64,000 nt of DNA, taken from contig NZ_AP014936.1 in NCBI RefSeq assembly GCF_002355415.1, forward strand, positions 3,162,001 through 3,226,000, in the 5' to 3' direction. Positions 7,420 through 24,451 of this stretch are shown here, one piece after another. Source of the stretch: Sulfurifustis variabilis (lineage in GTDB: Bacteria; Pseudomonadota; Gammaproteobacteria; Acidiferrobacterales; Sulfurifustaceae). Position 1 is the stretch's first letter, and each line of letters starts with the position of its first letter. The notes beneath the pieces are model-generated. The model ran no database searches. It was not told the origin of the DNA and worked only from the letters and a program-made list of their open reading frames with translations. The position numbers were made by a program, and so were the translations under genes.

Positions 7420-7431
7420 GTAGGGAGGGCG

Positions 7432-8052
7432 ATGCGATCGTTACCGAATCGGGTTGTCCGTGGGTGGCAACGTTGCCTTCCCGGTCTCCTCGTGATCACG
7501 CTGCTCCTCCCCGCGTGTACCGAGTCCCCGGCGCTCCGCGGGATGGACTTGAGCGGCGTCGACTGGGGCCGCGACTTCACGCTCGTCTCGCATCAGCGCC
7601 CGCCGGTCTCGACCGAAGCGTTCCGCGGCAAGGTGCTGATCCTGTTCTTCGGCTACACCCACTGCCCCGACATCTGCGGCCCGACGCTCGCGAAGCTTGC
7701 GGCGCTGCAAAAGGAGCTCGGCCCCGAGGCCGAGCACGTCCAAGTCCTGTTCGTCACTATCGACCCCGAGCGCGACACCCCCGAGCAGCTCAGGCGCTTC
7801 GTGCCTCAGTTCGACCCCCGCTTCATCGGTCTCACGGGAACACCCGAGGAAATCGCGGCGGCAGCGCGGGAATACAAGGTGGGCTACATGAGTCACCCGG
7901 GCTCACGGACCGCCTCGTCGATCATCCAGCACTCAGGCAACGTCTTCGTCAAGGATCAACGCGGCAGACCGCGTAGCTTGTTCGCAAACGAAACCCCGGT
8001 GGTCGACATGGCACACGATGTCCAACTCTTGCTGAAATCGGAGATGCGATGA
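7432..8052 (+). CDS. SCO1/SenC/PrrC-family copper chaperone lipoprotein
   Basis: 206 residues. A lipobox (LLPAC) follows an N-terminal hydrophobic stretch, so a lipid anchor is likely. The copper site is GYTHCPDICGPTL (CxxxC) together with the later histidine in IQHSGNVFV; these three residues bind Cu in SCO proteins. SCO proteins load the CuA site of cytochrome oxidase or act as thiol reductases. It follows the multicopper oxidase by 12 bases with a GGGAGGG ribosome site, so it belongs to the same transcript. Its stop overlaps a tiny ORF. Confidence 0.9.
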   Translation: MRSLPNRVVRGWQRCLPGLLVITLLLPACTESPALRGMDLSGVDWGRDFTLVSHQRPPVSTEAFRGKVLILFFGYTHCPDICGPTLAKLAALQKELGPEAEHVQVLFVTIDPERDTPEQLRRFVPQFDPRFIGLTGTPEEIAAAAREYKVGYMSHPGSRTASSIIQHSGNVFVKDQRGRPRSLFANETPVVDMAHDVQLLLKSEMR

Positions 8053-8467: not shown

Positions 8468-8932
8468 CTACATCTGAGACTGGAGGTAGCTCTGCAGGCC
8501 GAGCCGATCGATCAGGCCCAACTGCGTCTCCAGCCAGTCGATGTGCTCTTCCGTTTGCTCGAGAATGTCCTCCAGCAAGTCACGAGAGACGTAGTCGCCC
8601 CGGCTCTCGCAGAGGGCAACCCCGTCCTGCAGCCGTGCGCGGATATCGGTCTCGAGTTTCAGGTCGAGTTTCAACATCTCGCCCGGCCGCTCGCCGATCA
8701 GGAGCTTGCCAAGGTCCTGGAGGTTGGGCAACCCTTCAAGAAATAGAATACGCTCGATGAGCTTGTCCGCGCGCTTCATCTCGTCGATGGATGCCTTGTA
8801 GACGCGCTCGTTGAGCTTGCCCAGGCCCCAGTTCTTGTACATGCGCGCGTGCAGGAAATACTGGTTGATGGCCGTGAGCGCCTGGGTCAGCACTTTGTTC
8901 AAGTGTTCGATGACCTTTGCATCGCCCTTCAC
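8468..8932 (-). CDS. bfr: bacterioferritin subunit with haem ligand but degenerate ferroxidase site
   Basis: 154 residues, full length for Bfr. Aligned by eye to E. coli Bfr without gaps up to residue 133. Met52 (haem ligand), Glu51, Glu94 and His130 are kept, but three ferroxidase ligands are changed: Glu18 to Ala, His54 to Arg, Glu127 to Thr. This subunit should bind haem yet oxidise iron poorly. The GTG start at 8932 is chosen because AGGAGG lies six bases upstream; a longer upstream frame lacks homology. It follows the other bfr gene by 20 bases, so the two probably form a mixed 24-mer shell. Confidence 0.9.
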
Positions 8933-8952
8933 GTTCACCCTCCTTGGCGCGT

Positions 8953-9420
8953 CTACGTCTGCGACTGCAGGTAGTTCTGCAGGCCGACCTTCTCGATGAG
9001 CCCGAGCTGCCGCTCCAGCCAATACGTATGGTCGTACTCGGTGTCCTCTAGCATCTTCCGCAGGATCTCGCGCGTTTCATAGTCGCGCGCCGTCTCGCAA
9101 TAGGCGATCGCCTCCTTGAGCGCGGCCACGACCGAGAGCTCGAGCGCGAGGTCGTTTCGAAGCATCTCCGGCACGTCCTTGCCGATCTTGAGCGGCTCGC
9201 GCACGGAGAGGTTCGGCGTGCCCTCGAGGAACAGCATGCGCTTGATCAGCATCGCGGCATGACCGACCTCCTCGCTCCGCTCGTGCTCGATGCGCTCGTA
9301 GAGCTTGTTGAGCCCCCAGTTCTCGTACATGCGCGAGTGGGTGAAGTACTGATCGACCGCTGTGAGCTCCCCGGCGAGGAGCTTGTTCAGGTACTCGATG
9401 ACCTTCGCGTCGCCCTTCAT
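8953..9420 (-). CDS. bfr: bacterioferritin subunit with complete ferroxidase site but no haem Met
   Basis: 155 residues. Glu18, Glu51, His54, Glu94 and the final Glu-x-x-His pair (EYDH, shifted by a one-residue insertion) are all present, so the di-iron ferroxidase site is intact. Position 52, the haem-ligating Met in classical Bfr, is Val (SEEVGHAA). This is the mirror image of the downstream subunit. A GAGGG ribosome site lies 8 bases before ATG. Known in Neisseria and Magnetospirillum as co-assembling subunit types; here it stores iron taken up by the neighbouring operon. Confidence 0.92.
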
Positions 9421-9791: not shown

Positions 9792-11090
9792 TCACGCTGC
9801 AACCGCGTTCAAAGCCTCGAGAAAGGAAGCAAGGCTCGCGCTTCTCAGCGTAAAGAACGGCTTGGCCATGCGCTTGCATGCGTGCTTGATGTGCAGGCAG
9901 GCCTCGTGGCTTACGCAGTCTATGGGGCACACGACCGCATCCACGCTTTGGATCATCGCCGCGAGGCGAGTCGTGCTCTCGCTCAAGCCGCCGTCGTGGT
10001 GGAGCAACTCGCCGTTGTGTCGCGCCGCCAACGCGCGAAAGTGCGCAACCTGGCGGTTGCGCCCGCCGACGTACAACACGCGCCGGCCGCACAGGTCCGG
10101 CCGAGGACAATCGTCGGCCCCGCTCGCACCGCACTGCCGCAGACAAGTCATAGGCTCAGGGGCTTCCGCTGCCGCAGGGGCTTCAACAAGCGTAGGTCTG
10201 CCCGGCGACGGATGCATCGTCGCGGTCGAGCTTGCGAGCTTCGCCCATCCGCGCGCCTCCCGCTCCGCGGCCTGTACGCGCGCGAGCGCCTGCTCGAGCT
10301 GCGTCGCAAGCGCCTCTTTTTCCGCGCGCAGCCGCGCGAGCGCCTCGCCGTTTTGAAGCATCTCGAGCTCCGCCTGCGCTGCCGCCAATTCGCGCTTCAG
10401 CACGTCCAAGCGCTGTGCGCGCTCGCTGAGCACCTCGGCTCGACGCTCGAGATCCTTGATGCGCAGGCGCGCCGCCTCGGCGCTCCGCGCCTGTACGTCC
10501 TCGAGCTCGGCCACGCGGCGCTTGAGCATGGCCAGCTCGTGACGCGCCGAGTGGTTCGAATGCCCGGCGAGGTGCGAAAGCATGTGCACCTCGCCGTATA
10601 TTCGTTCCAGCAACGCCCCCTCCGCCAACGCGTGCGTGACCAGCGCCCAGAAGGCGCCGGCGATGTCCCCCGCCGCGCTTGCCACGTCCCAGAGCGCGCC
10701 GAGCTCGCCGACATTGCGGCACGCACTCGAGCGCTTGACCGCGGCGGCGAACTTGCGGTCGAGCCATTTGTGTATAGCGCGCGCGGCGAAAACCGGATTG
10801 CCTGCGAGCTGCACGAAGCTATGATGCAGCTCATAGTGGCTCATCGCTGCGCCTACACTAATACCCGCCTTGCGCGCGAGCCTCCGCAGCTCGTCGATGG
10901 TCAGGCAGGTGCCGATCACCAGGCAATGGAACCGGTGATCGAGCTCCCACAGCTTCAGGCGTCGCCGAGGTTGCTGCTGCTGCGCGTCAGCGTGGCGGTG
11001 TGACTCGGAGATCGGCAGCAAAGAGGGCACGCTGTCCGAACTCGGCAGCTCCGTCGCGAAGTGCCCCGGGATTCGGTCCGGCGCATTCAT
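9792..11090 (-). CDS. DUF2325 protein with coiled coil and Cys clusters
   Basis: 432 residues. The N-terminal third is helical with His/Cys residues (HRFHCLVIGTC, SHYELHHSF). A long coiled coil of Glu/Arg/Ala-rich heptads spans about residues 195-280. The C-terminal DUF2325 domain begins at RRVLYVGGRNRQVAHFR and contains DAVVCPIDCVSHEACLH. Just before it is a cysteine run, CLRQCGASGADDCPRPDLC. The cysteines could bind iron, zinc or haem, but no function is established. Its start overlaps the stop of the CbiX-like gene by ATGA, so the two are made together. No signal peptide: probably cytoplasmic. Confidence 0.8.
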   Translation of the reverse strand: MNAPDRIPGHFATELPSSDSVPSLLPISESHRHADAQQQQPRRRLKLWELDHRFHCLVIGTCLTIDELRRLARKAGISVGAAMSHYELHHSFVQLAGNPVFAARAIHKWLDRKFAAAVKRSSACRNVGELGALWDVASAAGDIAGAFWALVTHALAEGALLERIYGEVHMLSHLAGHSNHSARHELAMLKRRVAELEDVQARSAEAARLRIKDLERRAEVLSERAQRLDVLKRELAAAQAELEMLQNGEALARLRAEKEALATQLEQALARVQAAEREARGWAKLASSTATMHPSPGRPTLVEAPAAAEAPEPMTCLRQCGASGADDCPRPDLCGRRVLYVGGRNRQVAHFRALAARHNGELLHHDGGLSESTTRLAAMIQSVDAVVCPIDCVSHEACLHIKHACKRMAKPFFTLRSASLASFLEALNAVAA

Positions 11091-12916
11091 GGGTGCGCCT
11101 CCGGCGCCCTGTGCGCGACGTCGTGCGCTGCGGCGTGGACCGCCCTCGTCTCCGGCATGGTCGCGAGCGCCTGCTGACCCTTGATGATCTGCTCCTCGAC
11201 CCAGCGGGTAAACAGCGGATGCGGGGCAAAACCGCTGCCGAGCTCATAGTTCAAGCCCTCGAGAAACCTGTGCTCCAGGCCCTGCGCGTTGGTGCGCGCG
11301 GGAATGACGAGCGCGCGCCCGCCGTCGCGCGTGGCCTCGTCCACCATCGCGCGCACCTTGGCGATCCACGGCTCGCGCTTGCCGGGCCAGTCCTCGCGCC
11401 AGGTGGCGACCCGGATGGCGCGGAACTCTCGTCCGCCCCGCGCGCCCATCTGGCGCGCGAGCGACTCCAGGACCTCGAGCCAGCGCGCGTTGCGCGTGTC
11501 GTCCTTGGCGCCGTGCGCCGTGAGTATCACGGTCTCGCGGGCTGGATCCTTGGATAGAGAACGGGCGCGGTCGAGCAGCGCCTGCGCGAACAAGGAATGA
11601 TCCTCGATGCCTCCGGCGCTGCTCACCAGCGCCGCCGTGTGGATGCGCATGGGCGCTGCCGCGCCGTGCGCAGGGTCGTGGTCGTGACCCTGGTCATGTT
11701 CGTCCTGCCCGTGCATTGCGTGCCTTGGAGCGGCCCGGGCTGCCTCGATATCGAGGCCGAACAGGCGTTCGATATCGCCCTCGAAGCTGTCCTTGAGCCC
11801 AAAGACACGCACGATGACGATCGCGCGGATGCCGCGGGCCTCGAGTTTCCGGACCGCGCGCTCGATCAGCAATGGGTCGGCCATGGAGAAGCAGTACTCG
11901 ACCGGATAGCGCGCCTCCAAAGGCTTCACCGCCTGACGCATGGTCTCGTTCCAGTGGTAATCGGAACCGTGCGCCAGGACCACGACGCCGATGTCCTTCG
12001 TCGCCATCGAAAGGGCGCGGTTGGCCTCGCGCTCCATCCAGGTGCCGACCAGGGCCGGCAACGGCTCCTCGGCGAGGACCTCGACCTTCGCCGGCGCGAT
12101 GCGTTTCAGCTCGTTGGTGAATGCCATCATGCTGTCGAGCTTCTTGCCGAGGTGAAACGGCACGAGCACCACTCGCTCGCCACCAACCGCGGCCTGTGCC
12201 AGTCCTTCGCGCATCTCCCGGCCGCGCTCTTCGCGCTGCGCGGACGGGACGTCGTACCACACGAGCGCGCCCACCGACTCAAACGGTAGCCCCGCGGCGG
12301 CGTACTGCGCCAGCCGCTGCCAGTCGGCTTCCAGGCGCGTGCGCGTCTCGGGGGAATCGGCGCCGTAACCGGCGACGATTACGCGCCGGCCTTCCGGGTT
12401 CGGCAGCGCGCGCAGCCGATCGGCCAGCGCCTCGACCGCGAGGTAGCTCTCGCCGAAACTGCGTGCAAGAGTGATGTTGGATTTGCGACGCTCCGCCACC
12501 AGGGCGCGCACGCGATCCAGGCGCGGATCGTTCGGCGACAAGAACAGCGGCAACACGACGATGCGGCGCGCGCCGCGGCGCTCGAGCTCCTTGAGCGCGC
12601 GGGCGAACGTCGCGCGCGTGCGCTCGTCCGTCACCACGGTGAGTGCGGCGTTGTGCCGCCGGGCAAACGCCTCGAACGCGTCGCGGATCTCCTCGTTGCC
12701 CCAAAAACCCCGATCCGGCGCGGCGACAAGAAAGCCGACGCCGGCATCGCGCGTCGCCGGCTCCCCACCTTCGCGATCGGCCGCCGTCGCGGCGAAGGCC
12801 GAGCCCCACACCACCGCATACAACAGCACGCCGAGCGCAACCGTGGCAGCGGCCAGGGCCGGGTCGAAGACGCGGAACCGAAACTGAAAACGCCTCATTC
12901 TCGCACGCGGATCCAC
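11087..12916 (-). CDS. membrane-anchored CbiX/sirohydrochlorin-chelatase-like protein, four half-domains
   Basis: 609 residues. A hydrophobic segment near residues 19-43 (ATVALGVLLYAVVWGSAFA) anchors or exports it. Four chelatase-like half-domains follow, each about 110-130 residues. The third (VVVLAHGSDYHWNE) and fourth (VILTAHGAKDDTRN) keep the HGS/HGA histidine typical of class II chelatases; the first (FLVAAPDRGFWGNEE) and second (VIVAGYGADSPET) have lost it. A His-rich linker (HAMHGQDEHDQGHDHDPAHG) separates domains three and four and suits metal binding. GTG 12916 has AGGAGG 8 bases upstream. Usual CbiX inserts Co or Fe into sirohydrochlorin; next to a haem receptor, the reverse reaction (iron removal) is a possible role. 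Confidence 0.82.
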   Translation of the reverse strand: MDPRARMRRFQFRFRVFDPALAAATVALGVLLYAVVWGSAFAATAADREGGEPATRDAGVGFLVAAPDRGFWGNEEIRDAFEAFARRHNAALTVVTDERTRATFARALKELERRGARRIVVLPLFLSPNDPRLDRVRALVAERRKSNITLARSFGESYLAVEALADRLRALPNPEGRRVIVAGYGADSPETRTRLEADWQRLAQYAAAGLPFESVGALVWYDVPSAQREERGREMREGLAQAAVGGERVVLVPFHLGKKLDSMMAFTNELKRIAPAKVEVLAEEPLPALVGTWMEREANRALSMATKDIGVVVLAHGSDYHWNETMRQAVKPLEARYPVEYCFSMADPLLIERAVRKLEARGIRAIVIVRVFGLKDSFEGDIERLFGLDIEAARAAPRHAMHGQDEHDQGHDHDPAHGAAAPMRIHTAALVSSAGGIEDHSLFAQALLDRARSLSKDPARETVILTAHGAKDDTRNARWLEVLESLARQMGARGGREFRAIRVATWREDWPGKREPWIAKVRAMVDEATRDGGRALVIPARTNAQGLEHRFLEGLNYELGSGFAPHPLFTRWVEEQIIKGQQALATMPETRAVHAAAHDVAHRAPEAHP

Positions 12917-12935
12917 GGTATCTCCCTCCTTCGGT

Positions 12936-15182
12936 TCAGAACTGATACTTGAAGCTGGCGCTCACGTTGCGCCCGGGCTGGGTGTAGAACTCGGGGCCGG
13001 GATCGGTGGCGCGCAGCCCGGCCAGCCGGACATCGCCCCACAGCCAGTACGTTTCGTCGAAGACGTTGTTCACGGCGAGGTTGAGCTGCGCGCGTTTCAC
13101 GGGCTTCCACCACGCCGCAATGTCGAGCGTCTGCCAGGCGTCCGGCTTGAACCACTCGCCCGAGGAGAGTTCGGTGTCGTCCACCCGGCGCACCTTGGCG
13201 GCGGCGTTGACCCGCCCTTCCAAGCCCCAGCGGCCGACGTCGTACGCGATGGCGAGGGTGGCGCGCGCCGGCTCGATGCTGTTCAGCGGCTGGTCGTCGG
13301 TCTCGTTGTGGCCGCGTGCATACGCGATCGCCCCGCTCGCCCGCCACGCCGGCGCGAAGCGCCAGGCGGCGCGCGCCTCCGCGCCGTAGATGCGCACCTT
13401 GTCGACGTTAACGGACTGGAAGGTGGCGGCGAGGCCGGCGATGCAGCTCGGGTCGCCCGGGCAGGCGAGCCGCTGGGTTTCGATGAAGTCCTTGTAGCGG
13501 TTATCGAACACCGCGATCTGGGACTGAACGCGGCCGCGGTCGTGCTTCAGGCCGAGCTCCACACCCGTGCTGGTCTCGGGATCGAGATCGGGATTGGGGA
13601 CGACGCCGTAGGACTGGATCGTGTTGCGGAACGAACCGTTGACCTCTTCGTAGATGGGCGCGCGAAATCCCCGGGCGACCTGCGCCCATAGCGAGGTGGC
13701 CGGCGTGAACTGCCAGCGCGCCGCGAGCTTCGGGCTCAGCGCCGACTCGCGCTTGTCCACGGCCGGGCGGCCGGCGTGCTGGAACGTGAGCGCGTCCGGC
13801 TCGGCGTCCAGGCGGATGGCGTCGTAGCGCAGTCCGGGCACGAGGGTGAGGCGTCCGAGGGCGATCTCGTCCTGTACGAACAGGCCAACCGTATCGGTGT
13901 GGCCCGGCGCGAAATCGCGCAGCGGGAAGGTCTCGCCGGCAAGGCTCTTCGTAAACGTGCCGGTGGTCAGGTTCCACACGCGCCCGTCGCGCTTCTCCTC
14001 CGTCTCGGTGCGCGCGAGATCCACGCCGAAGGTGAGGAGGTGCTCCGCGCCCAGGGACGTGAAGCCGGTTTCCGCCTGCACCCCCGTCCCCGTGAGGTCT
14101 TGGGTAAAGTCGTAGTCGAGCTCGACGTAGCAGCTATTGCCGCTGCCGAAGGCCGCCGAGCAGCTCGCGCTGGTGTTTGTACGCTGCTGGCGGGTGCGCG
14201 TGCGCGTCTCGGACTCCTGCCGATACAGGCGCGCGGTGAGCCGGTCGTACCAGGCGCCCGCCGGCTTGTGCTCCCAGGCGAGCGTCGCCCGCCTCCGCTC
14301 GCCCGAATCGTCGCCCTCCATGGCAGTGATCTTCGGCAGGGAAGCGGACAGGCGCTTGACCTCTGTGAACGTGTCCTGATCCGCGCCTTCGAGCGTCAAG
14401 GTGAGTCCGTGGCCGGCCGCGGGCCTGATGCCAAACTTGGCGAGCAGACTGTCGCTACGGAAGTCCTGGGGATTGGGCGCGGTGCGGTCGACGGCGGTCA
14501 CGTCCCGGTCGCCCTGGTTGTCGAGCTCGCGGCCGTCGCGGCGCACGAAGCCGATCAGGCCTTCCAGCCGTGCGCCGCGGCCCGCGGCGATGACGGCGTT
14601 CGCGTACGACTCGTTGGCGCCGAATGCGCTTCCCTTGTAGCGGGCGCCGAAGCGCTCGTCGTCGGCGAGTACGTCGGAGGGATCGAGCGTGAGAAAACCG
14701 ACTACCCCACCGAGGGCATCCGAGCCGTAAAGGGAGGACGCGGGTCCGCGCAGGATCTCCACGCGCTTCAGGAACTCGGTGTCGGGCGGCAGCGGCGTGT
14801 TCACCGTGATGTTGGTCGGGCCGCCGCCGTTGCGGTAGTCCGGCAGCCGCACGCCGTCGACCAGCTGCTGCACGCGGTTGTCCTCGATGCCGCGGATGTT
14901 GACGCGCGTCGCGCCGTGGCGGCGCTGGTCGCGCGGCAGCGCCACGCCGGGCTCCTCGTCGAACAGATCGGCTTCGTCCGCGGGCAGGCGCCGGTCCATG
15001 TCCTCGCGCGAAATGCTCGTGATGGTCGCCGGCGTCTCGGCCTCGCGCCGTTCGGTGCGCGTCGCGGTGACCGCGACCTCCTCGAGCACGGTCACGCCTG
15101 AAACCGGTTCAGCGGCCTGCGCCGCCGGCAATACCATAACCATCAGGGTCGCCGCCACGAGCGGCTTGCGCTTGAGTTGCAT
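12936..15182 (-). CDS. TonB-dependent outer-membrane receptor, haem/haemoglobin type
   Basis: 748 residues. Signal peptide (VAATLMVMVLPAAQAA), a TonB box-like VLEEVAVTATRTER, plug domain with RVNIRGIEDNRVQQLVDGVR and LRGPASSLYGSDALGGVV, then a beta-barrel ending in the aromatic VSASFKYQF. The barrel has the FRAP (GFRAPIYEE) and NPDL (VPNPDLDPETS) motifs common in haem and haemoglobin receptors. No His is seen between those two motifs, which many haem receptors have, so the ligand is not certain. hemP, tonB-exbBD and bfd in the same operon favour haem. Followed 20 bases later by the chelatase-like gene. Confidence 0.88.
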   Translation of the reverse strand: MQLKRKPLVAATLMVMVLPAAQAAEPVSGVTVLEEVAVTATRTERREAETPATITSISREDMDRRLPADEADLFDEEPGVALPRDQRRHGATRVNIRGIEDNRVQQLVDGVRLPDYRNGGGPTNITVNTPLPPDTEFLKRVEILRGPASSLYGSDALGGVVGFLTLDPSDVLADDERFGARYKGSAFGANESYANAVIAAGRGARLEGLIGFVRRDGRELDNQGDRDVTAVDRTAPNPQDFRSDSLLAKFGIRPAAGHGLTLTLEGADQDTFTEVKRLSASLPKITAMEGDDSGERRRATLAWEHKPAGAWYDRLTARLYRQESETRTRTRQQRTNTSASCSAAFGSGNSCYVELDYDFTQDLTGTGVQAETGFTSLGAEHLLTFGVDLARTETEEKRDGRVWNLTTGTFTKSLAGETFPLRDFAPGHTDTVGLFVQDEIALGRLTLVPGLRYDAIRLDAEPDALTFQHAGRPAVDKRESALSPKLAARWQFTPATSLWAQVARGFRAPIYEEVNGSFRNTIQSYGVVPNPDLDPETSTGVELGLKHDRGRVQSQIAVFDNRYKDFIETQRLACPGDPSCIAGLAATFQSVNVDKVRIYGAEARAAWRFAPAWRASGAIAYARGHNETDDQPLNSIEPARATLAIAYDVGRWGLEGRVNAAAKVRRVDDTELSSGEWFKPDAWQTLDIAAWWKPVKRAQLNLAVNNVFDETYWLWGDVRLAGLRATDPGPEFYTQPGRNVSASFKYQF

Positions 15183-15273
15183 AGATCCTCTTCTTGTGCG
15201 AATAAAAGCGAGGCTGGCTACTCAAGCAGGAGCTCGTTGGCTGGCTTGCTTTAGGCTGTTTATGTCCTGAGTT

Positions 15274-17202
15274 TCATTTCTCCCGGGTGTCGTCCGAGAC
15301 GGGCCTTCCCTTGCGCGTGGCCCACCACAGGCCGAACGCGCTCAAAATTATCGCTAGCGCTTGTGCGCTCAGCGTCTGCAGGGTCGGGTAGACGCCGAGC
15401 ATCGGGACGGTGATGAACCGCACCGCATCGGCCCCGATCTTGCCCGCCTCCTGCAAGGCGGCGATGCCCTGGCCCGTAAAGATCACGGCGAGAATCAGGA
15501 GCACGATGCCGGAGGCGGAAAAGAAAAGCCCGATTGGTAGCTTGACGCTCGCGCGCAGGATCGCCCAGGCAACCGCGACCAGCAGCACCGCGGCGAGGCC
15601 GAGCCCGGCGAGGAGCGCTCCGTAGCCCTCGGGCCCCGCCTGCGCGGAAAGCGCCTGGTAGAACAGGACGGTCTCGAACGCCTCGCGGTAGACCGCGAGG
15701 AACGACACCACGGCGAGCGTCCACACGGTTCCGGTGGAGAGCGCGCCGCTCACCTTGTCGCGGATGAACCTCTGCCACGCGGCGCTGTGCGACTTGCTGT
15801 GCAGCCAGTAACCGACGTAGAGCAGCATCGCGGCCGCGATGAGCGCGGTCACGCCTTCGGTGACCTCGCGCCCGGCGCCGGAAATCTCCACGACATAGTT
15901 CGACACCGCCCAGGTCAACAGCCCGAGCGCCAGCGCCGCGATCCAGCCCGCGTGCACCCAGCGCCGCGCCTCGGTGCGGCCCGCGCGCGTCAGGAACGCC
16001 AGGATCGCGGCCACGACCAGGATCGCCTCCGTGCCCTCGCGCAGCAGGATCACGAGCGCGGCGCCGAAAGTCGTCGCCCACGAAAGTTGAGCGCCGCCGA
16101 GCACCTCGCGCACGTCGGCGAGCAGGGCCTGCACCGCGGCGGCCTGCTTCTCGACCTGCTCGAGCGGCGCGCCCGATTGCAGCAGGCCGCGATAGGCCAT
16201 CATCTCGCGCTCGGTGCGCGCCATCAGCCCCGGATCCACGTTTTGCAGGCCCGACTCGATCAACTCGAAGCCTTCGAGGTAGGCCTGGATCGCAAGCCGC
16301 GCGGCCTCGGCCCGCGCACCCACGCGATACGCGTCGAGGCTGCGCGCGAGGGTGGCGATGGCGAATTCGAGGGGAGACGGTTTCGTCGCAACGACGGCCG
16401 CTGGGTTGGCGCGTAAATACGCCTGTAGCGCTACGCCGTCTTCGCCGAAGCGTTCCTTGATCTCGTTGGCCGAGAGCGTGGCCACATTGGCGAGATCGGG
16501 GAAGCTGTCGCGGCCTTTGCCCCCCGCCCACAGCGCCCTGCCCTCGGCGCGGGTTTCGTCGGTGGCCCCGAAATTGGCGACGTAAAACGCCAGCGCCCAG
16601 CGGTCCTCCTCGCTCAGGCGCCTGTACGAGGCCATACCCGTGCCGTCCACGCCGAGCGTGATGGTGTTGTAAAGTCCATAGACGCTGCGGCTCGCCATGC
16701 GGCCGGCGTCGTGAAAATCGGACGGAGCGGGATCGAGCCCTTTCCCGGCGGCGCCGTCGCCGCGCCCCTCGGCGCCGTGGCAGGCGGCGCAGTGTTCCGC
16801 GTACAGCGTCGCACCGCGTTTCAGGTCCGGGGCGGTCTTCGGAGCAATCTGGAGGTCGTAGGCGCGAATCACCGCCCAACGCAACGCCGTCGCTTTGGCC
16901 GCGACCTCGCGGACCTCGGCTTTCGCGCCGATGCGCGCCGCGAGCGCCGAGGCATCGGAGAGAAGCCGGCTGCGGGCCTCGTTCTCCGGCAGACCTTGGA
17001 TCAGGCCCTGCACCTGCCCCGTGAACTCGCGCATCTCCTGGTATTCGTCCGCGTTCTTCACCGTGCCGTTCTCAACGGCCTCGGCGTAATCCACGGCGAT
17101 GTAGTCGAGCAGGTGCAGCGCCGTCTGCGCCGCATCCCGGGCGCGGGCCGCAGGGATAAGCGCCAGCAAGAGGATCACCGACAGAAGCAATCGCAGACGC
17201 AC
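15274..17202 (-). CDS. FTR1-family iron permease fused to an N-terminal cytochrome c domain
   Basis: 642 residues. After a signal peptide comes a helical periplasmic region, then a c-type haem site CAACH (C138, C141, H142) with a likely axial Met in GTGMASYRR. A second helical linker precedes an FTR1/EfeU membrane domain of about seven helices from residue 375 on. Both permease motifs are there: LLREGTEAILVV and VYREAFETVLFY (REGxE/REAxE). Such fusions couple iron redox chemistry to uptake; direction of electron flow is unknown. The gene starts 3 bases after the exbD stop. Likely imports iron released in the periplasm. Confidence 0.92.
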   Translation of the reverse strand: MRLRLLLSVILLLALIPAARARDAAQTALHLLDYIAVDYAEAVENGTVKNADEYQEMREFTGQVQGLIQGLPENEARSRLLSDASALAARIGAKAEVREVAAKATALRWAVIRAYDLQIAPKTAPDLKRGATLYAEHCAACHGAEGRGDGAAGKGLDPAPSDFHDAGRMASRSVYGLYNTITLGVDGTGMASYRRLSEEDRWALAFYVANFGATDETRAEGRALWAGGKGRDSFPDLANVATLSANEIKERFGEDGVALQAYLRANPAAVVATKPSPLEFAIATLARSLDAYRVGARAEAARLAIQAYLEGFELIESGLQNVDPGLMARTEREMMAYRGLLQSGAPLEQVEKQAAAVQALLADVREVLGGAQLSWATTFGAALVILLREGTEAILVVAAILAFLTRAGRTEARRWVHAGWIAALALGLLTWAVSNYVVEISGAGREVTEGVTALIAAAMLLYVGYWLHSKSHSAAWQRFIRDKVSGALSTGTVWTLAVVSFLAVYREAFETVLFYQALSAQAGPEGYGALLAGLGLAAVLLVAVAWAILRASVKLPIGLFFSASGIVLLILAVIFTGQGIAALQEAGKIGADAVRFITVPMLGVYPTLQTLSAQALAIILSAFGLWWATRKGRPVSDDTREK

Positions 17203-17205
17203 GGT

Positions 17206-17625
17206 TTATCTGCTCCTGCCCGGATCGGTGATCAGGCCGACGCGCTCGAGTTGCGCGCGCCTGGCCTGGGCCATGACCTCGGCGATAAGCTGGTAGCGCG
17301 TGTCGCGGTCGGCCCGGACCTGCAGCACCGGCTGCGGCCGGCGCCCGCCGGCCTGCTCGAGCTGCTGCACCAATGCCGCCCGGTCGAGAGGCCGGTTGTT
17401 CCAGAAGAAGTTGCCGTGGTCGTCGATCGCGAGCGTGATCCTCTCGGGCTGCTCGGCCCCCGGCTGTCCCGCAGCCCGCGGCAGGTTGACCTTGATCGAA
17501 TGCGTGAACAGGGGCGCAGTGATGATGAATACCACCAGCAGGACGAGCATCACGTCGACGAGCGGCGTGACGTTGATCTCGCTCATCGGCCGCGAGCCGG
17601 TGCTTTCGTCGAACGCGCCGATCAT
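17206..17625 (-). CDS. exbD: ExbD-type TonB-system energy transducer
   Basis: 139 residues. One N-terminal TM helix, VDVMLVLLVVFIITAPLF, preceded by SEINVTPLVD with the essential Asp of the ExbD/TolR proton path. The remaining periplasmic domain is short and ends in a Lys/Arg tail. Its start overlaps the exbB stop by ATGA. With ExbB it powers TonB for the haem receptor of the same operon. TolR is an alternative reading, but a TonB gene sits directly upstream. Confidence 0.92.
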   Translation of the reverse strand: MIGAFDESTGSRPMSEINVTPLVDVMLVLLVVFIITAPLFTHSIKVNLPRAAGQPGAEQPERITLAIDDHGNFFWNNRPLDRAALVQQLEQAGGRRPQPVLQVRADRDTRYQLIAEVMAQARRAQLERVGLITDPGRSR

Positions 17626-18371
17626 GCTTGAGCCTCTTTCAGCGCGGGCCGCTGCGGTAAGGCGGGTGCCGGCTCCATGTCGAGCTTGGCGCCGGTGATC
17701 AGATAGGTATGGAGGTCGTGCGCGAACCCGTCGAGCTCGGCGACAGTGACCCGATTGGCGCGGACAAAGGCGTTGTAGGCGAGCACGGCCGGAATGGCGA
17801 CGGCGAGACCGGCGGCGGTCATGACGAGCGCCTCGCCCACTGGGCCGGCAACCTGATCGAGCGTGTTGAGGCCACCGGCACCGACGCCGAGCAGCGCGTG
17901 GTAGATCCCCCAGACGGTCCCGAACAGGCCCACGAACGGTGCTACGGCGCCGATCGAGGCGAGCAGGCTGAGCCCTGCTTCGAGCCGCCCGTTCTCGCGC
18001 GTCAGCACCTGACGCAGCGTACGAACCACGAGATCGGACACACTCGACTGATCGCCCAGACGCTCGGCCCGCATGCGATGCTGCTGATGGTGCCGTACGG
18101 CGACGATTGCGCCGAGCGCGAGCCGCGCCGCCGGGTCAACCGCGTGCTGATTGCGTAGCAGATCCATAGCTTCGGTCAAATTCTGCGCGTCCCAGAAACG
18201 GGCAACGACAGCTTGGTGGCGGCGGCGAACCTGCCACGTGTGCCACGCCTTGGCAAAGATCAGGTACCAGCTGCTGAGCGACATCGCTAGCAACACCAAC
18301 GCCGCACCGAGGCCGACGGCGTCGAGCTGGCTCAGAAAACTCTGCAAACCCGATGAGGTGACCGCAGGCAT
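17622..18371 (-). CDS. exbB: ExbB-type proton channel protein
   Basis: 249 residues, three TM helices: LGAALVLLAMSLSSWYLIFA at the start, then LLASIGAVAPFVGLFGTVWG and VMTAAGLAVAIPAVLAYNAF. The GLFGTVWGIYHAL and AGLAVAIPAV motifs are MotA/TolQ/ExbB signatures. The upstream in-frame extension to 18461 overlaps tonB, so ATG 18371, six bases after the tonB stop, is preferred. The middle cytoplasmic loop is Arg-rich. Confidence 0.92.
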   Translation of the reverse strand: MPAVTSSGLQSFLSQLDAVGLGAALVLLAMSLSSWYLIFAKAWHTWQVRRRHQAVVARFWDAQNLTEAMDLLRNQHAVDPAARLALGAIVAVRHHQQHRMRAERLGDQSSVSDLVVRTLRQVLTRENGRLEAGLSLLASIGAVAPFVGLFGTVWGIYHALLGVGAGGLNTLDQVAGPVGEALVMTAAGLAVAIPAVLAYNAFVRANRVTVAELDGFAHDLHTYLITGAKLDMEPAPALPQRPALKEAQA

Positions 18372-18376
18372 CGACG

Positions 18377-19054
18377 CTAACTTTCCAAAGTGAACGAAAT
18401 CGGAACCAAGACCGAGGCCGTCACCGGCACATCGCCCTGACGTGCGGGAACGAAGCGCCATTTGCGCACCGCCTCGAGCGCGGCCCGATCCAGGCGGGCG
18501 AAGCCGCTCGAGCGGCTGATCGCGATATCGGCCGAAGTGCCGTCCGGGCGCACGCGCACGCGCAGCAGGACCCGACCCTCCTCGCCCAGGCGGCGCGCGA
18601 GCGAGGGGTAAACGGGCGGCGGGTTGTTCAGGTAATCGGCATTGAAGCGCGGCAAGGTGACCGACGATGCCGGTGCCGGCGCATCGTCTGCGGCTACGGT
18701 CTCGGTCGGTGCGGGTTCCGAGGCAGTTGCCACGTCGGTGGTGATCGGAGCTTCGGGTGCCGAAGCGTCGGCATCAGGCGGGACATCCGTCGGCGCCCGC
18801 TCCGAGGCCTTGAGGGTTGAGGCTGGCGATGGCGATTTCCGAACGGGACGCGCCCTGACCGTGGCCTTCGTGGGTTTCGGCGGAGCGACCGAGGGCTCCT
18901 CTCCCGCTGAATCGATGAGGCTCACCATCACCGGGACCGACGCGACGGAGCTTGGAGCGACGTCGAGCTCCAGCAGCGCAGCACTGAACGCCGCGTGCAT
19001 GGCGAGGGTGGCCGCCATGGCGGGCGAGAAGATTCGAGATTTCAGGAACGCCAC
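18377..19054 (-). CDS. tonB: TonB-family energy-coupling protein
   Basis: 225 residues from the preferred GTG start. One N-terminal TM segment (MAATLAMHAAFSAALLEL) with the His and Ser face typical of TonB, a Pro/Ala/Thr-rich spacer across the periplasm (residues about 60-130), and a C-terminal domain with YPSLARRLGEEGRVLLRVRV and the conserved end KWRFVPARQ. GTG 19054 has GGAGG 8 bases upstream; ATG 19072 is an alternative start. Spacer is Ala/Pro/Glu rather than the Pro-Lys type of E. coli. Confidence 0.9.
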   Translation of the reverse strand: MAFLKSRIFSPAMAATLAMHAAFSAALLELDVAPSSVASVPVMVSLIDSAGEEPSVAPPKPTKATVRARPVRKSPSPASTLKASERAPTDVPPDADASAPEAPITTDVATASEPAPTETVAADDAPAPASSVTLPRFNADYLNNPPPVYPSLARRLGEEGRVLLRVRVRPDGTSADIAISRSSGFARLDRAALEAVRKWRFVPARQGDVPVTASVLVPISFTLES

Positions 19055-19151
19055 AAGCCGAACCTCCAGCATACTGATTGTCCGAACTAAACGGATTCCC
19101 TGGCTGGCTGCCCCGGTGGGGCTGGCTGGCGATGGGACGTGAAACGGCCTT

Positions 19152-19364
19152 CTACGCGGTCAAGATCAGTTTTCCGTTGCTCGTCACACGCAAGTGGTAC
19201 TCCCGGCCGTTGTGCTCGATGACGAGCTCGTCGGCTTCGGCTAGCAGCGCTCGGCTCGAGATCTTTTGAGGAGCGCGCGCTCTCGAGCCAGCCTCGCCGG
19301 CCGGGGAAGGGTTCACTTGGCTGGTCTTTATCACGGAATGCCGCCTCGGTTCTTTCTTGGCCAT
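19152..19364 (-). CDS. hemP: HemP haem-uptake protein
   Basis: 70 residues. The C-terminal part has the HemP pattern: ISSRALLAEADELVIEHNG followed by YHLRVTSNGKLILTA. The basic N-terminus varies between species. HemP is a small cytoplasmic protein found at the head of haem uptake operons; in Burkholderia it activates the haem receptor gene (established for that genus). Here it lies 80-100 bases before tonB and just after bfd, supporting haem as the ligand of this operon. Confidence 0.9.
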   Translation of the reverse strand: MAKKEPRRHSVIKTSQVNPSPAGEAGSRARAPQKISSRALLAEADELVIEHNGREYHLRVTSNGKLILTA

Positions 19365-19401
19365 CTCGTTTAGCGACAGCTCGGGCTCCGGGCCCTGCGG
19401 G

Positions 19402-19599
19402 TCACGCGGCCCGCTCCTCGACGCCGTCTGCCTCCACCTTCAACGCCTCGTGAAGCACCTCCCGTACATGCGACGCGCACCGGCCGCAACGAGAAGCGAC
19501 GCCCAAAGACGCGCAAAGCTGCTTCAGGGTGCAAGCCCCCTTGCACACCGCCTCCCGAATCTGGCCATCGGTGACGGCGTTACAAACGCAGACGTACAT
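19402..19599 (-). CDS. bfd: Bfd, bacterioferritin-associated [2Fe-2S] ferredoxin
   Basis: 65 residues from ATG 19599, with GAGGAG upstream. Cysteines C4, C6, C38 and C41 give the Bfd pattern CxC-x31-CxxC that binds one [2Fe-2S] cluster, and VTDGQIREAV follows the first pair. Bfd docks on the haem of bacterioferritin and passes electrons to release stored iron. First gene behind the Fur box. It gives the operon a direct functional link to the two bfr genes 10 kb away. Confidence 0.93.
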   Translation of the reverse strand: MYVCVCNAVTDGQIREAVCKGACTLKQLCASLGVASRCGRCASHVREVLHEALKVEADGVEERAA

Positions 19600-19641
19600 C
19601 GTTCTTGCTCCTCGAGTTGCGGGCGCTAACGTTAACGCGAA

Positions 19642-19656
19642 TGATAATGATTCTCG
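19642..19656 (-). promoter_or_regulatory. Fur box upstream of bfd
   Basis: TGATAATGATTCTCG on the plus strand matches the Fur 7-1-7 consensus (TGATAAT-n-ATTATCA) at 12 of 14 arm positions. It sits about 45 bases upstream of the bfd ATG in an AT-rich island within GC-rich DNA. It should repress bfd and the downstream haem/iron genes when iron is sufficient. Confidence 0.85.
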
Positions 19657-19889
19657 TTTATATTGCAACTGCTTTTAGGCGGGCGGGTGGGGATCAGTTA
19701 AAGGTCTGATGGCACTACTTTTAGACCCGCGATAAAGACTTCGGGCTAGGGGCGAGAGCCCTTGCCGCTGGAGACCAACCTAAATGACTCACTCACTGGC
19801 CCATTTCTTGCCTCAACAAAATGACGACCAGGTCCGATGCTTGATGGAGCCCTCGAGGCCCCGGACAAAAAATACAAGGGGGTAAGTTT

Positions 19890-20831: not shown

Positions 20832-21266
20832 TTACGACAATCGCCGCTTCCGCTTCTGACGGGGCACCCCGTTACGCCCGATACTTTCGATGATCGGACA
20901 GGCCCCGGAATCGGCGCCCGCGCAGAGGTTGAGCAGCAGGCGCAGCTCGTCGCGCAGCGTCGTGAGCTCGACGAGCCGCGCCTCGACTTCCGCGAGCTTT
21001 TTCCCCGTAAGCTGCCGCACCTTGGAGCGCGCGCGGTGCGGCGCCTCGCGCATGGCCAATAGCACCCCGATCTCGAGCAGCGAGAAGTCCATCTTCTGCG
21101 CCCGCTGGATGAACTTCAGGCGCGAGAGGTCCTGGTCATTGTAGAAGCGGATGCCGGCGCCGTTGCGCCCGATCCTGGGCAGCAGCCCGATCTTTTCGTA
21201 GTAGCGCAGCGTGTCGGGCGAGAGACCGAGCTGCTCGGTGACCTCGCTGATGCGATACTGGCCCAT
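20832..21266 (-). CDS. MerR-family metal-responsive activator
   Basis: 144 residues. The winged helix starts YRISEVTEQLGLSPDTLRYY, then a long dimer helix. The sensor loop has C115 and C123 (LCAGADSGACPII), a Cys-x7-Cys spacing as in CueR-type Cu(I)/Ag(I) sensors. There is no cysteine at the position near residue 77 that divalent sensors (ZntR, CadR) use. It follows the CcdA-like gene by 8 bases, so it is the last gene of its own target operon. Its probable operators are the two dyads near 25.05-25.15 kb. The Arg/Lys tail (RQKRKRR) is unusual. Confidence 0.88.
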   Translation of the reverse strand: MGQYRISEVTEQLGLSPDTLRYYEKIGLLPRIGRNGAGIRFYNDQDLSRLKFIQRAQKMDFSLLEIGVLLAMREAPHRARSKVRQLTGKKLAEVEARLVELTTLRDELRLLLNLCAGADSGACPIIESIGRNGVPRQKRKRRLS

Positions 21267-21274
21267 AATCGCCT

Positions 21275-21955
21275 CTACATCAGGAAGAAGTACTCATTAA
21301 TAAGATAAGCGCCGCTACCGATCAGCACCAGCGCGCCAGCGATCTCGAAGGCCTTCTGCCAGCGCGTGAGCGCCTTGAGCGATTCGAGCCAGCCGACGGC
21401 CCAGGCGCCGAGGAGGATCGGCACCGAGCGCCCGAGTGCGAACGCCAGCAACAGCGCGAAGCCGAAGGACACCGAACCGATCCCGGCTGCCGCCGTCAGC
21501 ATCACCAGCAGCGCCGGGGTGCAGAACGGGCAGATCGCGACCGAGAACGGGATGCCGAGTAGGAATGCGCCCCACACTCCCGCCACGCGGGTGCCGCGCA
21601 TCGAGAACCACGGGAGCCGGAGCTTGATCCACCCCGGCCACATTAGCCCAAGCACGATCAGGAGCGGCCCGAGCACCAACCCCCACTCGCGGCCCATGAC
21701 CTGCTTCACCCATTCACCGCCCAGCGCCGCGCCCACGCCCAGCACGACGTGGGTGACGAGCATGCCGGCGATGAACGCCCCGCCGAGCCACACCGCCCGT
21801 CGCGGCTCACGGGCCTTGGTGACATAGGCGAGCGTGACCGGGATTGCGGCGACCGCCACGGGATTGAAGCTGAAGACGAAGCCGGTGGCGAAGCCGAGGG
21901 CCAGACCCGCGACACTTGCGTGCTGCAATGCCAAGCGGAGCGACTCAGCGTCCAT
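21275..21955 (-). CDS. CcdA/DsbD-like six-helix thiol transporter
   Basis: 226 residues, about six membrane helices. The first repeat has SFNPVAVAAIPV in place of the usual S-P-C-V-L-P, so that cysteine is missing; the second has AICPFCTPALLVM with a CxxC. It therefore differs from the standard CcdA at 3555 and may carry electrons or metal by another route. It lies between a P1B ATPase and the MerR regulator, with a CxxC thioredoxin upstream, suggesting a reducing partner for metal handling. Specific function unknown. Confidence 0.75.
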   Translation of the reverse strand: MDAESLRLALQHASVAGLALGFATGFVFSFNPVAVAAIPVTLAYVTKAREPRRAVWLGGAFIAGMLVTHVVLGVGAALGGEWVKQVMGREWGLVLGPLLIVLGLMWPGWIKLRLPWFSMRGTRVAGVWGAFLLGIPFSVAICPFCTPALLVMLTAAAGIGSVSFGFALLLAFALGRSVPILLGAWAVGWLESLKALTRWQKAFEIAGALVLIGSGAYLINEYFFLM

Positions 21956-22003
21956 ATGACCTGGTCTGGAGGACTAAAACGACCGAGACGATAGAGCGGG
22001 TCA

Positions 22004-24451
22004 TCATACCGGCTGTGGCTTTACGTCGAGCGGCCGGCCGACGCTCATGAGCGCGTCGAACAGGAGCTGCGGGCGGCCCCAGAGCGAGTTGAAGAAGATC
22101 GTGGTCACGCTCGCCGCCATCGCCGCCATCGCCCACACCGGGTAGACGAGGCCGGTCGCCGCGAGCGGGATGCCGACACCGTTGAAGAGAAAAGCGAGCG
22201 CGACGTTCTCCAGCATCTTGCGGTAGCCGCGGCGGCTGATCTCGTGGGCCGCGACCACCGTCTCGAGCCGTGGTCTGAGAATGATGATGTCGGCCGACTC
22301 GATCGCGATGTCGGTGCCGCTCGCCATGGCGATGCCGACGTCGGCCTGCATCAGCGCCGGGGCGTCGTTGACGCCGTCGCCCACCATCGCCGCCCGGCCG
22401 CGCGTCTGAAGCTCGCGGATGATTTCCGCTTTCCGCTCCGGGCGCACGCCGGCATGCACCTCGGCAATACCGGCCTCGGCGGCGAAGCGGCGCGCGGCGC
22501 GTTCGTTGTCGCCGGTAAGCAACACCGTGCGCAGGCCACGCTGATGCAGCGCGGCAACCGTCTTCGCCGCATCCGGGCGCAGACGGTCGCCGAGCGCGAT
22601 GACGCCGAGCGCCTGGCCCGCGCGCGCCACTGCAGTCACCGTCCGCCCCTGCGTCTCGAGCTCGTCGATGCGCGGGGCGAGCGACCCAAGATTCACGCCT
22701 CGGCTCTTGAGGAAGCCGGGGCTCCCGACCAGCACCGCGCCGCCTCCGATGCGCGCGGTGACGCCCTGACCCGGCACCGCCTGGAACTCCTCGACCGCGG
22801 GCGGCGCCAGGCCGCGCTTGAAAGCGACATTGACAATCGCCTGGGCGAGCGGATGCTCGGAGCTCGCCTCGGCCGCGGCGGCGATCGCAAGCAGCTCCCC
22901 CTCGGTACCGCCCGCCGCCACGATCTCCTGCACCGCGGGCTCCCCCTCGGTGAGCGTGCCGGTCTTGTCGAACACGACCGTGCGCACGAGCCGGTAGCCC
23001 TGGAAGGCCTCGCCGGTGCGCATGAGGATGCCGCGCTCGGCGGCCTCGCCCGAGCCGCGCACGATGGAAAGCGGCGCCGAGATGCCGACCGCGCAGGGAT
23101 AACCCATCACGAGGACGCTTAAGCCCGCGAACACCGCGCGCTCGAGGTCGGCCGCACCGGTAAAAAGGTACGAGCCTGCGAGCCAACCGATGAAGGCGGT
23201 CGCGGCGACGATCAGCACCGTGGGCGTGTACACCCGCAGCACCCGGTCGACGAGGTGCAGCAGCCCGGGCTTCATGGCACGAGCGTCTTCGACATGACGG
23301 ATGATCTGGGCAAGGAAGCTCTCCTCGCCCACCGCCGTCACCTCGAGGAGCAATGTCCCGGTGCCGTTGATCGAGCCGCCGATCACGGTATCGCCCAGCT
23401 TCTTTTCGACCGGCAAGGGCTCGCCGGTCACGAGCGCTTCGTTCACCGCCGAGTGTCCCTCGACCACTCTTCCGTCCACCGGGATGCGCTCGCCCGGGCG
23501 GATGCGCACGCGCTCCCCGCGTTTCACGTCCTCGACCGGGACGTCCGTCTCGCGCCCGGCACGCACGACGCGCGCCATGTCGGGCTGAAGGTCGAGGAGT
23601 TTCTTCACCGCCTGGGAGCTTCGGGTCTTCACGATCAGCGACAGCCACTCGGAGAAGATATGGTAGGTCGCGACCATCACGGAGACGGCGAAGAACGCCG
23701 CGGTCGGATAGCCGTCCCGCTGCCAGACCAACCCGATGATGCCGCCCGCGATACCGGCGAAAGCGCCGATCTCGAGCAGCACGTGCTGGTTGAGGATGCC
23801 GCGCTTGAGCGCCTGGATCGCCATGTGCAGGATGTGCCGGCCCACGCCGAACACGACGAAGAGCGCAAGCCCCGCGGCGAGCCAGGGTGTCAAACCGGCG
23901 AGCCAGCCGCCCGCGCGCGCATAGAAGATTCCGGCTGCCAGGGCGCCGAGCGCAGCAGAACCGGCGAGGGCCGCCGGCACACCGCGGGGCTTCAGCACCA
24001 CGAAAAGGAAGGCCGCGAGGCTCGCGACCGCGACCGCCGGCAGCAGCGCGGTCCAGAACCCGGTGGGATTCGCGACGAGCGCGATCGCCGCAAGGCTCGC
24101 GCCGACGGCGGCGACGAAGCGCCGCCCCTCCTGCACGAGCAGCGCCTCCTCCTCGTCATAGGGGCGAAGCTTTCGCGGATCGGAGATCGTGTAGCCGATG
24201 TCCTTGAGCGTCTGGAGCAGCGCCTCGGCGCGCGCCACGCTCGGGTCGTATTCGATCAGCGCCTGCTCGTGCGTCAGGCTCACCGCCACCTGCTCGACGC
24301 CGGGCTCGCGGCCCAACGCCTTCTCGATCGTGCCGGTGCAGAGCGAGCAGTGCAGGCCGCCGATGCGCGCGCGGATGCGCCGGCGGCCGGGTCGGGCGGA
24401 CGGTTCTTCGCTCCAGAAGCGCGGAGCGGTTTCAGAAACGGTGGCATTCAT
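22004..24451 (-). CDS. P1B-type heavy-metal ATPase with HMA domain and YPC motif
   Basis: 815 residues. N-terminal HMA domain with [15 protein letters not shown] (CxxC), about eight TM helices, actuator TGEPLPVEK, phosphorylation site [20 protein letters not shown] for nucleotide binding, and hinge [12 protein letters not shown]. The ion site in TM6 reads [11 protein letters not shown]: Tyr replaces the first Cys of the normal CPC, though the PC-x6-P spacing is of the Cu(I) kind. The last helix carries FFNSLWG. The substrate is therefore uncertain: Cu/Ag-like by spacing, or another soft metal. It is part of the MerR-controlled cassette and exports metal from the cytoplasm. Confidence 0.93.

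Follow-up and report, generated by a model that had tools for sequence, protein, structure and literature searches.

A candidate heme de-chelatase with a tandem class II chelatase fold in a Fur-box operon of Sulfurifustis variabilis

Background

It is only since 2025, with HmuS, that release of iron from heme without the use of oxygen has been demonstrated, mainly in Bacteroidota. HmuS, encoded in the hmuYRSTUV operons of this phylum, is an established heme de-chelatase, and Fe(II) then enters via FeoB (PMC12583661). The CbiK-like IhtB/FetB of P. gingivalis has been proposed to remove iron from heme (PMC10913741, PMC6460266), and FetB is reported to exchange porphyrin metals, making Mn-protoporphyrin (PMC13402209). 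Here we consider a CbiX-like protein, for which we use our own label CbiX4, encoded in a stretch of 64,000 nucleotides from Sulfurifustis variabilis (contig NZ_AP014936.1, positions 3,162,001 to 3,226,000; "the window" below means this whole stretch). Its gene lies next to that of a heme-type TonB-dependent receptor (TBDR) in a nine-gene operon. We favour, with some reserve, the view that CbiX4 removes iron from heme (heme de-chelation) in the periplasm.

Like HmuS, CbiX4 is related to chelatases, faces the periplasm and has its gene together with that of a heme receptor, and HmuY is a partner in several CbiX4 loci; in both cases a separate permease then takes the iron (FeoB there, FTR1 as proposed here). 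The two proteins are nevertheless unrelated: HmuS is a class I (CobN/ChlH-type) protein of 1469 residues, CbiX4 a tandem of the class II type with 609. With IhtB/FetB it shares the class II type of chelatase fold, a place outside the cytoplasm and an association with a TonB receptor, but IhtB/FetB is a single bilobal module, an outer-membrane lipoprotein with ATP-binding cassette (ABC) partners IhtC-E, and CbiX4 has two modules. CbiK-P of Desulfovibrio vulgaris is likewise a periplasmic class II chelatase, but a single-module cobaltochelatase. The nearest relatives in sequence and fold, SirB, CfbA and CbiX-S, are biosynthetic enzymes. The HmuRSTUV/PhuRSTUV systems have Fur, hemP and a heme-type receptor in common with our operon, but the host genome contains no heme ABC importer, HemS or PF01126 heme oxygenase. 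Hence CbiX4 differs from HmuS in fold class and from FetB in architecture, while de-chelation itself has precedents, shown for HmuS and suspected for IhtB/FetB. A literature search, which included CbiX in connection with heme uptake, hemP or Nitrosomonas, found no paper on the tandem CbiX4 family.

Fold and conserved residues of CbiX4

11087..12916, minus strand: CbiX4, a putatively exported tandem class II chelatase-fold protein (PF01903 CbiX, 50 bits, two stretches)

Pfam marks two CbiX stretches in CbiX4, but the actual content is four CbiX-like half-domains. An AlphaFold (AF2) model built from an alignment of 69 sequences (predicted local distance difference test, pLDDT, 88; predicted template modelling score, pTM, 0.85) arranges the 609 residues as two complete bilobal class II chelatase modules of the ferrochelatase/SirB type, at about 55-304 and 302-588. 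As modelled, CbiX4 has the bilobal class II (ATP-independent) chelatase fold twice. The C-module (302-588) matches SirB with Z 18.7 (root mean square deviation, rmsd, 3.2 A over 234 aligned residues) and the periplasmic CbiK-P with Z 16.2; the N-module (56-303) matches HemH, the B. subtilis ferrochelatase, with Z 15.8 (rmsd 3.3, 230 aligned) and FetB, a P. gingivalis protein that binds heme, with Z 15.3. Periplasmic binding proteins come next in the structure-match list after the chelatases. In a profile search against PDB, CbiX4 found SirB (E 8e-7), CfbA (E 1e-5) and, weakly, FetB (E 0.03). It scores 31.7 bits against the CfbA model NF033198, below the curated cut-off of 120, and Pfam found no similarity to class I CobN/ChlH (PF02514).

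Among the 69 homologues D68, R69, G70, G73, N74, M264, H316, G317, N323, M345 and D347 are invariant; H468 and E508-D509-W510 are so wherever letters are present. The two histidines (H316 in 69/69 sequences, H468 in all 68 with letters) fall one in each lobe of the C-module. In known class II chelatases the first catalytic histidine follows strand 1 (His10 of CbiX-S, His145 of CbiK, His183 of HemH), and the second metal-binding residue is His74, His207 and Glu264, respectively. H316 aligns with the HG motif that holds the first catalytic histidine of CfbA/CbiX-S, and the same HG motif is found around H468 in the second lobe. The first lobe of the C-module has no conserved histidine at the variable positions 373-378, and E508-D509 is invariant. 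Both histidines are gone from the N-module, which contains no catalytic one; what it keeps is D68-R69-G70-x-x-G73-N74 and M264.

Bilobal chelatases described so far have both histidines within one lobe (PMC7689651). In contrast to the bilobal forms of SirB, CfbA and CbiX-S, the CbiX4 C-module has in each lobe the first histidine but no longer the second. With one histidine kept per lobe, H316 and H468 should lie on opposite sides of the cleft and face each other across it. Judged by the motifs, this arrangement resembles that of HmuS, where His538 and His1209 face each other across a cavity (PMC12583661).

Export, distribution and gene neighbourhood

We scanned about 85,000 species genomes and obtained 68 CbiX4 loci. 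Sec-type N-termini are visible in essentially every homologue: 55/68 exceed a strict hydrophobicity threshold, a signal can be made out by eye in most of the others, and three homologues have lipoboxes. The family is thus predicted to be exported, outside the cytoplasm, which makes a cytoplasmic role in cobalamin or siroheme synthesis very unlikely. The initial annotation called the protein a membrane-anchored chelatase relative; its N-terminus does resemble a Sec signal peptide, but anchoring is uncertain, as the signal may be cleaved or uncleaved.

The homologues occur in about eight phyla (taxa were taken from record titles, and many records are metagenome bins). Carriers among the Proteobacteria are Nitrosomonas, Nitrosospira and other beta- and gammaproteobacteria; the others are Nitrospira, Manganitrophaceae, Nitrospina, Scalindua, relatives of Salinibacter, Acidobacteria, Ignavibacteriae and KSB1. 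Close to the host the family is sparse (5/274 genomes of the class, 2/96 relatives).

A TBDR lies within 4 kb of CbiX4 in 31 of the 48 loci with 4-kb flanks on both sides, 30 times on the same strand, where about 4% would be expected by chance (329 plug domains in 90.5 Mb; this genome-wide receptor density was used as a within-locus control offered too few positions, five). The linkage holds in 7/12 loci of Nitrosomonadaceae, 8/13 of other beta- and gammaproteobacteria, 12/14 of Nitrospirota, 2/3 of Acidobacteria, 1/2 of Rhodothermota and 1/1 of Ignavibacteriae, and in none of Nitrospinota (0/2) and Scalindua (0/1). All ten adjacent receptors tested have the heme-type models TIGR01785/01786 as their best match; six exceed the cut-off, and three from Nitrospira and one from Acidobacteria fall below it. 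Near CbiX4 we also find hemP in nine loci, and HmuY, known as the hemophore of Bacteroidota hmu operons, adjacent or next but one, in five. The five genomes with HmuY beside CbiX4 contain no CobN/HmuS-type protein, so CbiX4 stands in the place of HmuS in these loci. CobN-type proteins are encoded in G333 and G353, two further carriers. Further partners recur in particular clades: TonB/ExbBD, PepSY_TM, FtsX/HlyD exporters and DUF2325, the last again beside CbiX4 in Nitrosomonas-group loci, L012 and L079. When recurrence of the whole gene order was checked across genomes, the exact order was not found again; what recurs is CbiX4 with a receptor, and the partners vary.

Some loci have features of their own. 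In Nitrospira (L047:13870-14853, L045, L055, L059, L066, L067) a further exported CbiX protein of two domains, whose N-lobe holds both catalytic histidines, stands beside CbiX4 and the receptor and is followed by a PepSY_TM_like_2 gene. In the Thermomonas/Xanthomonas group (L029-L034) CbiX4 has no adjoining receptor, and a FabA-like frame is next to it in L030, L031 and L034. CobN/HmuS-type proteins near TBDR plugs occur outside Bacteroidota, in G333 (contigs C29 and C56, a Nitrosomonas record) and in G353 (contig C65, Scalindua).

The operon in the window

Nine genes, bfd-hemP-tonB-exbB-exbD-cytochrome c/FTR1-receptor-CbiX-DUF2325, occupy 9792-19599, all on the minus strand. Besides CbiX4, the features are the following.

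19641..19668, minus strand: sigma70-like promoter TTGCAA-16-TATCAT, predicted by consensus scan (9/12), overlapping the Fur box
19637..19661, no strand assigned: Fur box, overlapping 15/19 and 14/19 registers, by match to the E. coli Fur consensus
19402..19599, minus strand: bfd, bacterioferritin-associated ferredoxin (PF04324 Fer2_BFD, 42 bits; start MYVCVCN)
19152..19364, minus strand: hemP (PF10636, 60 bits)
18377..19072, minus strand: tonB (PF03544 TonB_C, 87 bits)
17622..18371, minus strand: exbB (PF01618 MotA_ExbB, 106 bits; the longest open reading frame reaches 18461)
17206..17625, minus strand: exbD (PF02472, 107 bits)
15274..17202, minus strand: cytochrome c-FTR1 iron permease (PF03239, 84 bits, and PF00034 Cytochrom_C, 52 bits)
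12936..15182, minus strand: TBDR, heme/hemoglobin type (TBDR barrel 218 bits, Plug 85 bits, TIGR01786)
9792..11090, minus strand: DUF2325 protein (PF10087, 83 bits; no export signal apparent)
8953..9420, minus strand: bacterioferritin-like gene downstream of the operon (PF00210, 121 bits)
8468..9022, minus strand: second bacterioferritin-like gene downstream of the operon (PF00210, 132 bits)

The nine-gene order on one strand behind a single Fur box, proposed in the initial annotation, is borne out: families were assigned by Pfam profiles, and the matches of all nine genes exceed the gathering scores. The most likely starts of bfd and exbB are at 19599 and near 18371. Intergenic gaps are short, with a maximum of about 90 bases between FTR1 and the receptor; about 3-5 bases separate tonB from exbB and exbD from FTR1, and exbB/exbD and CbiX/DUF2325 overlap by 4 bases.

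At 19637-19655 the Fur box agrees with GATAATGATAATCATTATC in 15/19 positions; on the opposite strand, registers with 14/19 overlap it. It is the top match in the window, and 20 simulated 64-kb sequences reach at most 14/19. Because it overlaps the predicted promoter, it marks the place where the iron repressor would act, and the operon is accordingly predicted to be iron-regulated.

The receptor was called heme-type from the start, and its score against TIGR01786 (465.7 bits, curated cut-off 323.75) agrees with this, though the scope of that model also takes in transferrin and lactoferrin receptors. The FTR1 protein scores 83.5 bits against PF03239 (cut-off 25.3) and has the REXXE-type motifs REGTE, REVTE and REAFE together with a CAACH motif; it stays under the NCBIfam curated cut-offs (126 against 304 and 104 against 255, TIGR00145/EfeU).

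Heme and iron genes of the host

The host genome is a single 3.96-Mb contig, 100% complete by estimate. Profile searches found in it no HemS, CobN/HmuS (PF02514), DyP peroxidase or FeoB. PF01126 heme oxygenase is absent from all 27 carrier genomes, including the host, and was detected in three control genomes (the 27 were hand-picked for spread and are enriched for receptor loci, which leaves the 31/48 figure unaffected). The host has five TBDRs, and the operon receptor is the only heme-type one. Its single FecCD permease has BtuC as its best match, below the cut-off, and a BtuB receptor scoring over its own cut-off is encoded about 4 kb away; no heme-type (HmuTUV type) FecCD permease was found. 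The lack of a heme ABC permease and heme oxygenase, seen initially in the sequence of the operon region, thus extends to the complete genome for the families tested; IsdG, HutZ/HugZ and ChuW-type families were not searched.

The only FTR1 of the genome is the operon copy. Some FTR1 is present in 10/27 carrier genomes. Within a CbiX4 neighbourhood FTR1, and likewise the cytochrome c-FTR1 gene within the cluster, occurs only in the window, L009 and L010; L050 has an FTR1 about 6.6 kb off.

Possible function of CbiX4

We propose that this is an iron-starvation operon for acquisition of heme iron. Heme would cross the outer membrane through the receptor, powered by TonB/ExbBD. CbiX4 would bind it in the periplasm, take out the iron and leave protoporphyrin, a ferrochelatase-type reaction in reverse. 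Catalysis would likely take place in the cleft of the C-module, where H316 and H468 lie on opposite lobes; for the N-module, binding or transfer of the tetrapyrrole is the likelier task. The cytochrome c domain joined to FTR1 might oxidise the freed iron and FTR1 import it, to be handled by Bfd and bacterioferritin and managed by Fur. The receptor/TonB step and the final handling of iron follow from established functions of these families; the CbiX4 step is what we hypothesize. Ferrochelatase can act in reverse, according to Taketani 2007 as cited in PMC6460266. Stripping of iron in the periplasm by a CbiX-type fold was already suggested in the initial annotation. It fits an exported protein that has the chelatase fold twice, is linked to heme receptors, hemP and HmuY and belongs to a host from which the tested alternatives are absent; heme binding and iron removal are what we infer from this. 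The accompanying suggestion, that FTR1 re-imports the iron, fits the sole genomic FTR1 being in the operon and fares less well elsewhere, as that partner is confined to one clade.

Several observations weigh against de-chelation by CbiX4. The second metal-binding histidine of known CbiX/CbiK chelatases has no conserved counterpart in the 69-homologue alignment. FRAP...His...NPNL is a heme-receptor signature, and the window receptor has FRAP and NPDL with no histidine between, whereas Nitrosomonas receptors keep FRAP-H-NPNL. No receptor lies within 4 kb in 17/48 fully flanked loci (Nitrospinota, Scalindua, the Thermomonas group and some nitrifiers). The link of FTR1 with CbiX4 is limited to the clade of the window, so their co-occurrence is narrow. 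The search for heme degradation in the host did not extend to the IsdG, HutZ/HugZ and ChuW types. There is no PepSY_TM reductase in the host genome, and no reductant was identified; as an electron source PepSY_TM would fit other carriers and is ruled out here by its absence.

Other roles can be suggested. CbiX4 might be a non-catalytic periplasmic protein that uses the chelatase fold to bind and deliver heme, buffering it or passing it to some inner-membrane route. Class II chelatases and periplasmic binding proteins do look alike in fold, and the lost histidines of the N-module and the missing second catalytic histidine of the C-module would suit a binder. However, the histidine pair, DRGxxGN, MxD and EDW are invariant across phyla, beyond the needs of mere binding, and the host has no ABC heme permease as recipient; we regard this role as unlikely, though worth keeping in mind. 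Insertion or exchange of porphyrin metals in the periplasm, instead of iron harvest, is a less probable role still. It draws on the likeness of the N-module to FetB (Z 15.3), for which such exchange is reported (PMC13402209), and on metal insertion being the normal activity of class II chelatases, but the Fur box, bfd and FTR1 indicate iron acquisition, and periplasmic metal insertion would seem to have no evident use to an iron-starved cell.

Doubt may also be directed at the substrate. The receptor could bring in another metalloporphyrin, a hemoprotein fragment or a siderophore on which CbiX4 acts: its canonical histidine is missing, TIGR01786 includes transferrin and lactoferrin receptors, and 4/10 adjacent receptors are below cut-off. 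Yet hemP is in the same operon, and HmuY and hemP are in other CbiX4 loci, so we hold a different substrate to be improbable. It is hardly to be expected at all that CbiX4 is an ordinary enzyme of B12 or siroheme synthesis, charging sirohydrochlorin with cobalt, nickel or iron, that lies by chance in an iron operon. Matches to PF01903 and, weakly, to the NCBIfam CfbA model would point that way, but the latter reaches 31.7 against 120, the export signal is family-wide, there are four half-domains, and B12 or siroheme genes are absent beside CbiX4.

If removal of iron from heme by CbiX4 is correct, porphyrin-metalating folds became iron-harvesting more than once, here by a convergent class II enzyme, and the family, at present listed under CbiX or sirohydrochlorin chelatase, gains a function. 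It would also suggest a way for nitrifiers such as Nitrosomonas and Nitrospira to use heme although they lack HemS and the heme oxygenase family tested. CbiX4 may then be an unrecognised second way to obtain iron from heme. A broader suggestion, tentative and nearly balanced between belief and doubt, is that heme de-chelatases evolved twice independently and that CbiX4 is the second class. As a tandem class II chelatase it would have replaced HmuS in hmuR/hmuY-type operons and would serve harvest or recycling of heme iron in cytochrome-rich chemolithotrophs (nitrifiers, anammox bacteria, Manganitrophaceae) and others.

Neighbouring genes

The AF2 model of the DUF2325 protein has a helical N-terminal part, a long coiled coil and a C-terminal alpha/beta domain. 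C388, H395 and C405 are invariant in the alignment of DUF2325 proteins, and Nitrosomonas loci have two copies each. In C. jejuni the DUF2325 protein Cj1384, without assigned function, is encoded beside katA and a heme-trafficking gene (PMC9426514). The overlapping bacterioferritin-like pair (8468-9420, minus strand), iron-storage neighbours of the operon, directly follows the DUF2325 gene on the same strand. Further on, at 5767-8052 on the plus strand, are a multicopper oxidase with a Met-rich stretch and SCO1. A multicopper oxidase also adjoins CbiX4/hemP in Nitrosomonas (L015:15161-16213), and an SCO1-like gene adjoins CbiX4 in L026/L027; the oxidase is a possible ferroxidase partner in iron import. 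Upstream of the operon, 20832-24451 on the minus strand encodes a MerR regulator, a DsbD/CcdA-type membrane protein and a heavy-metal P-type ATPase.

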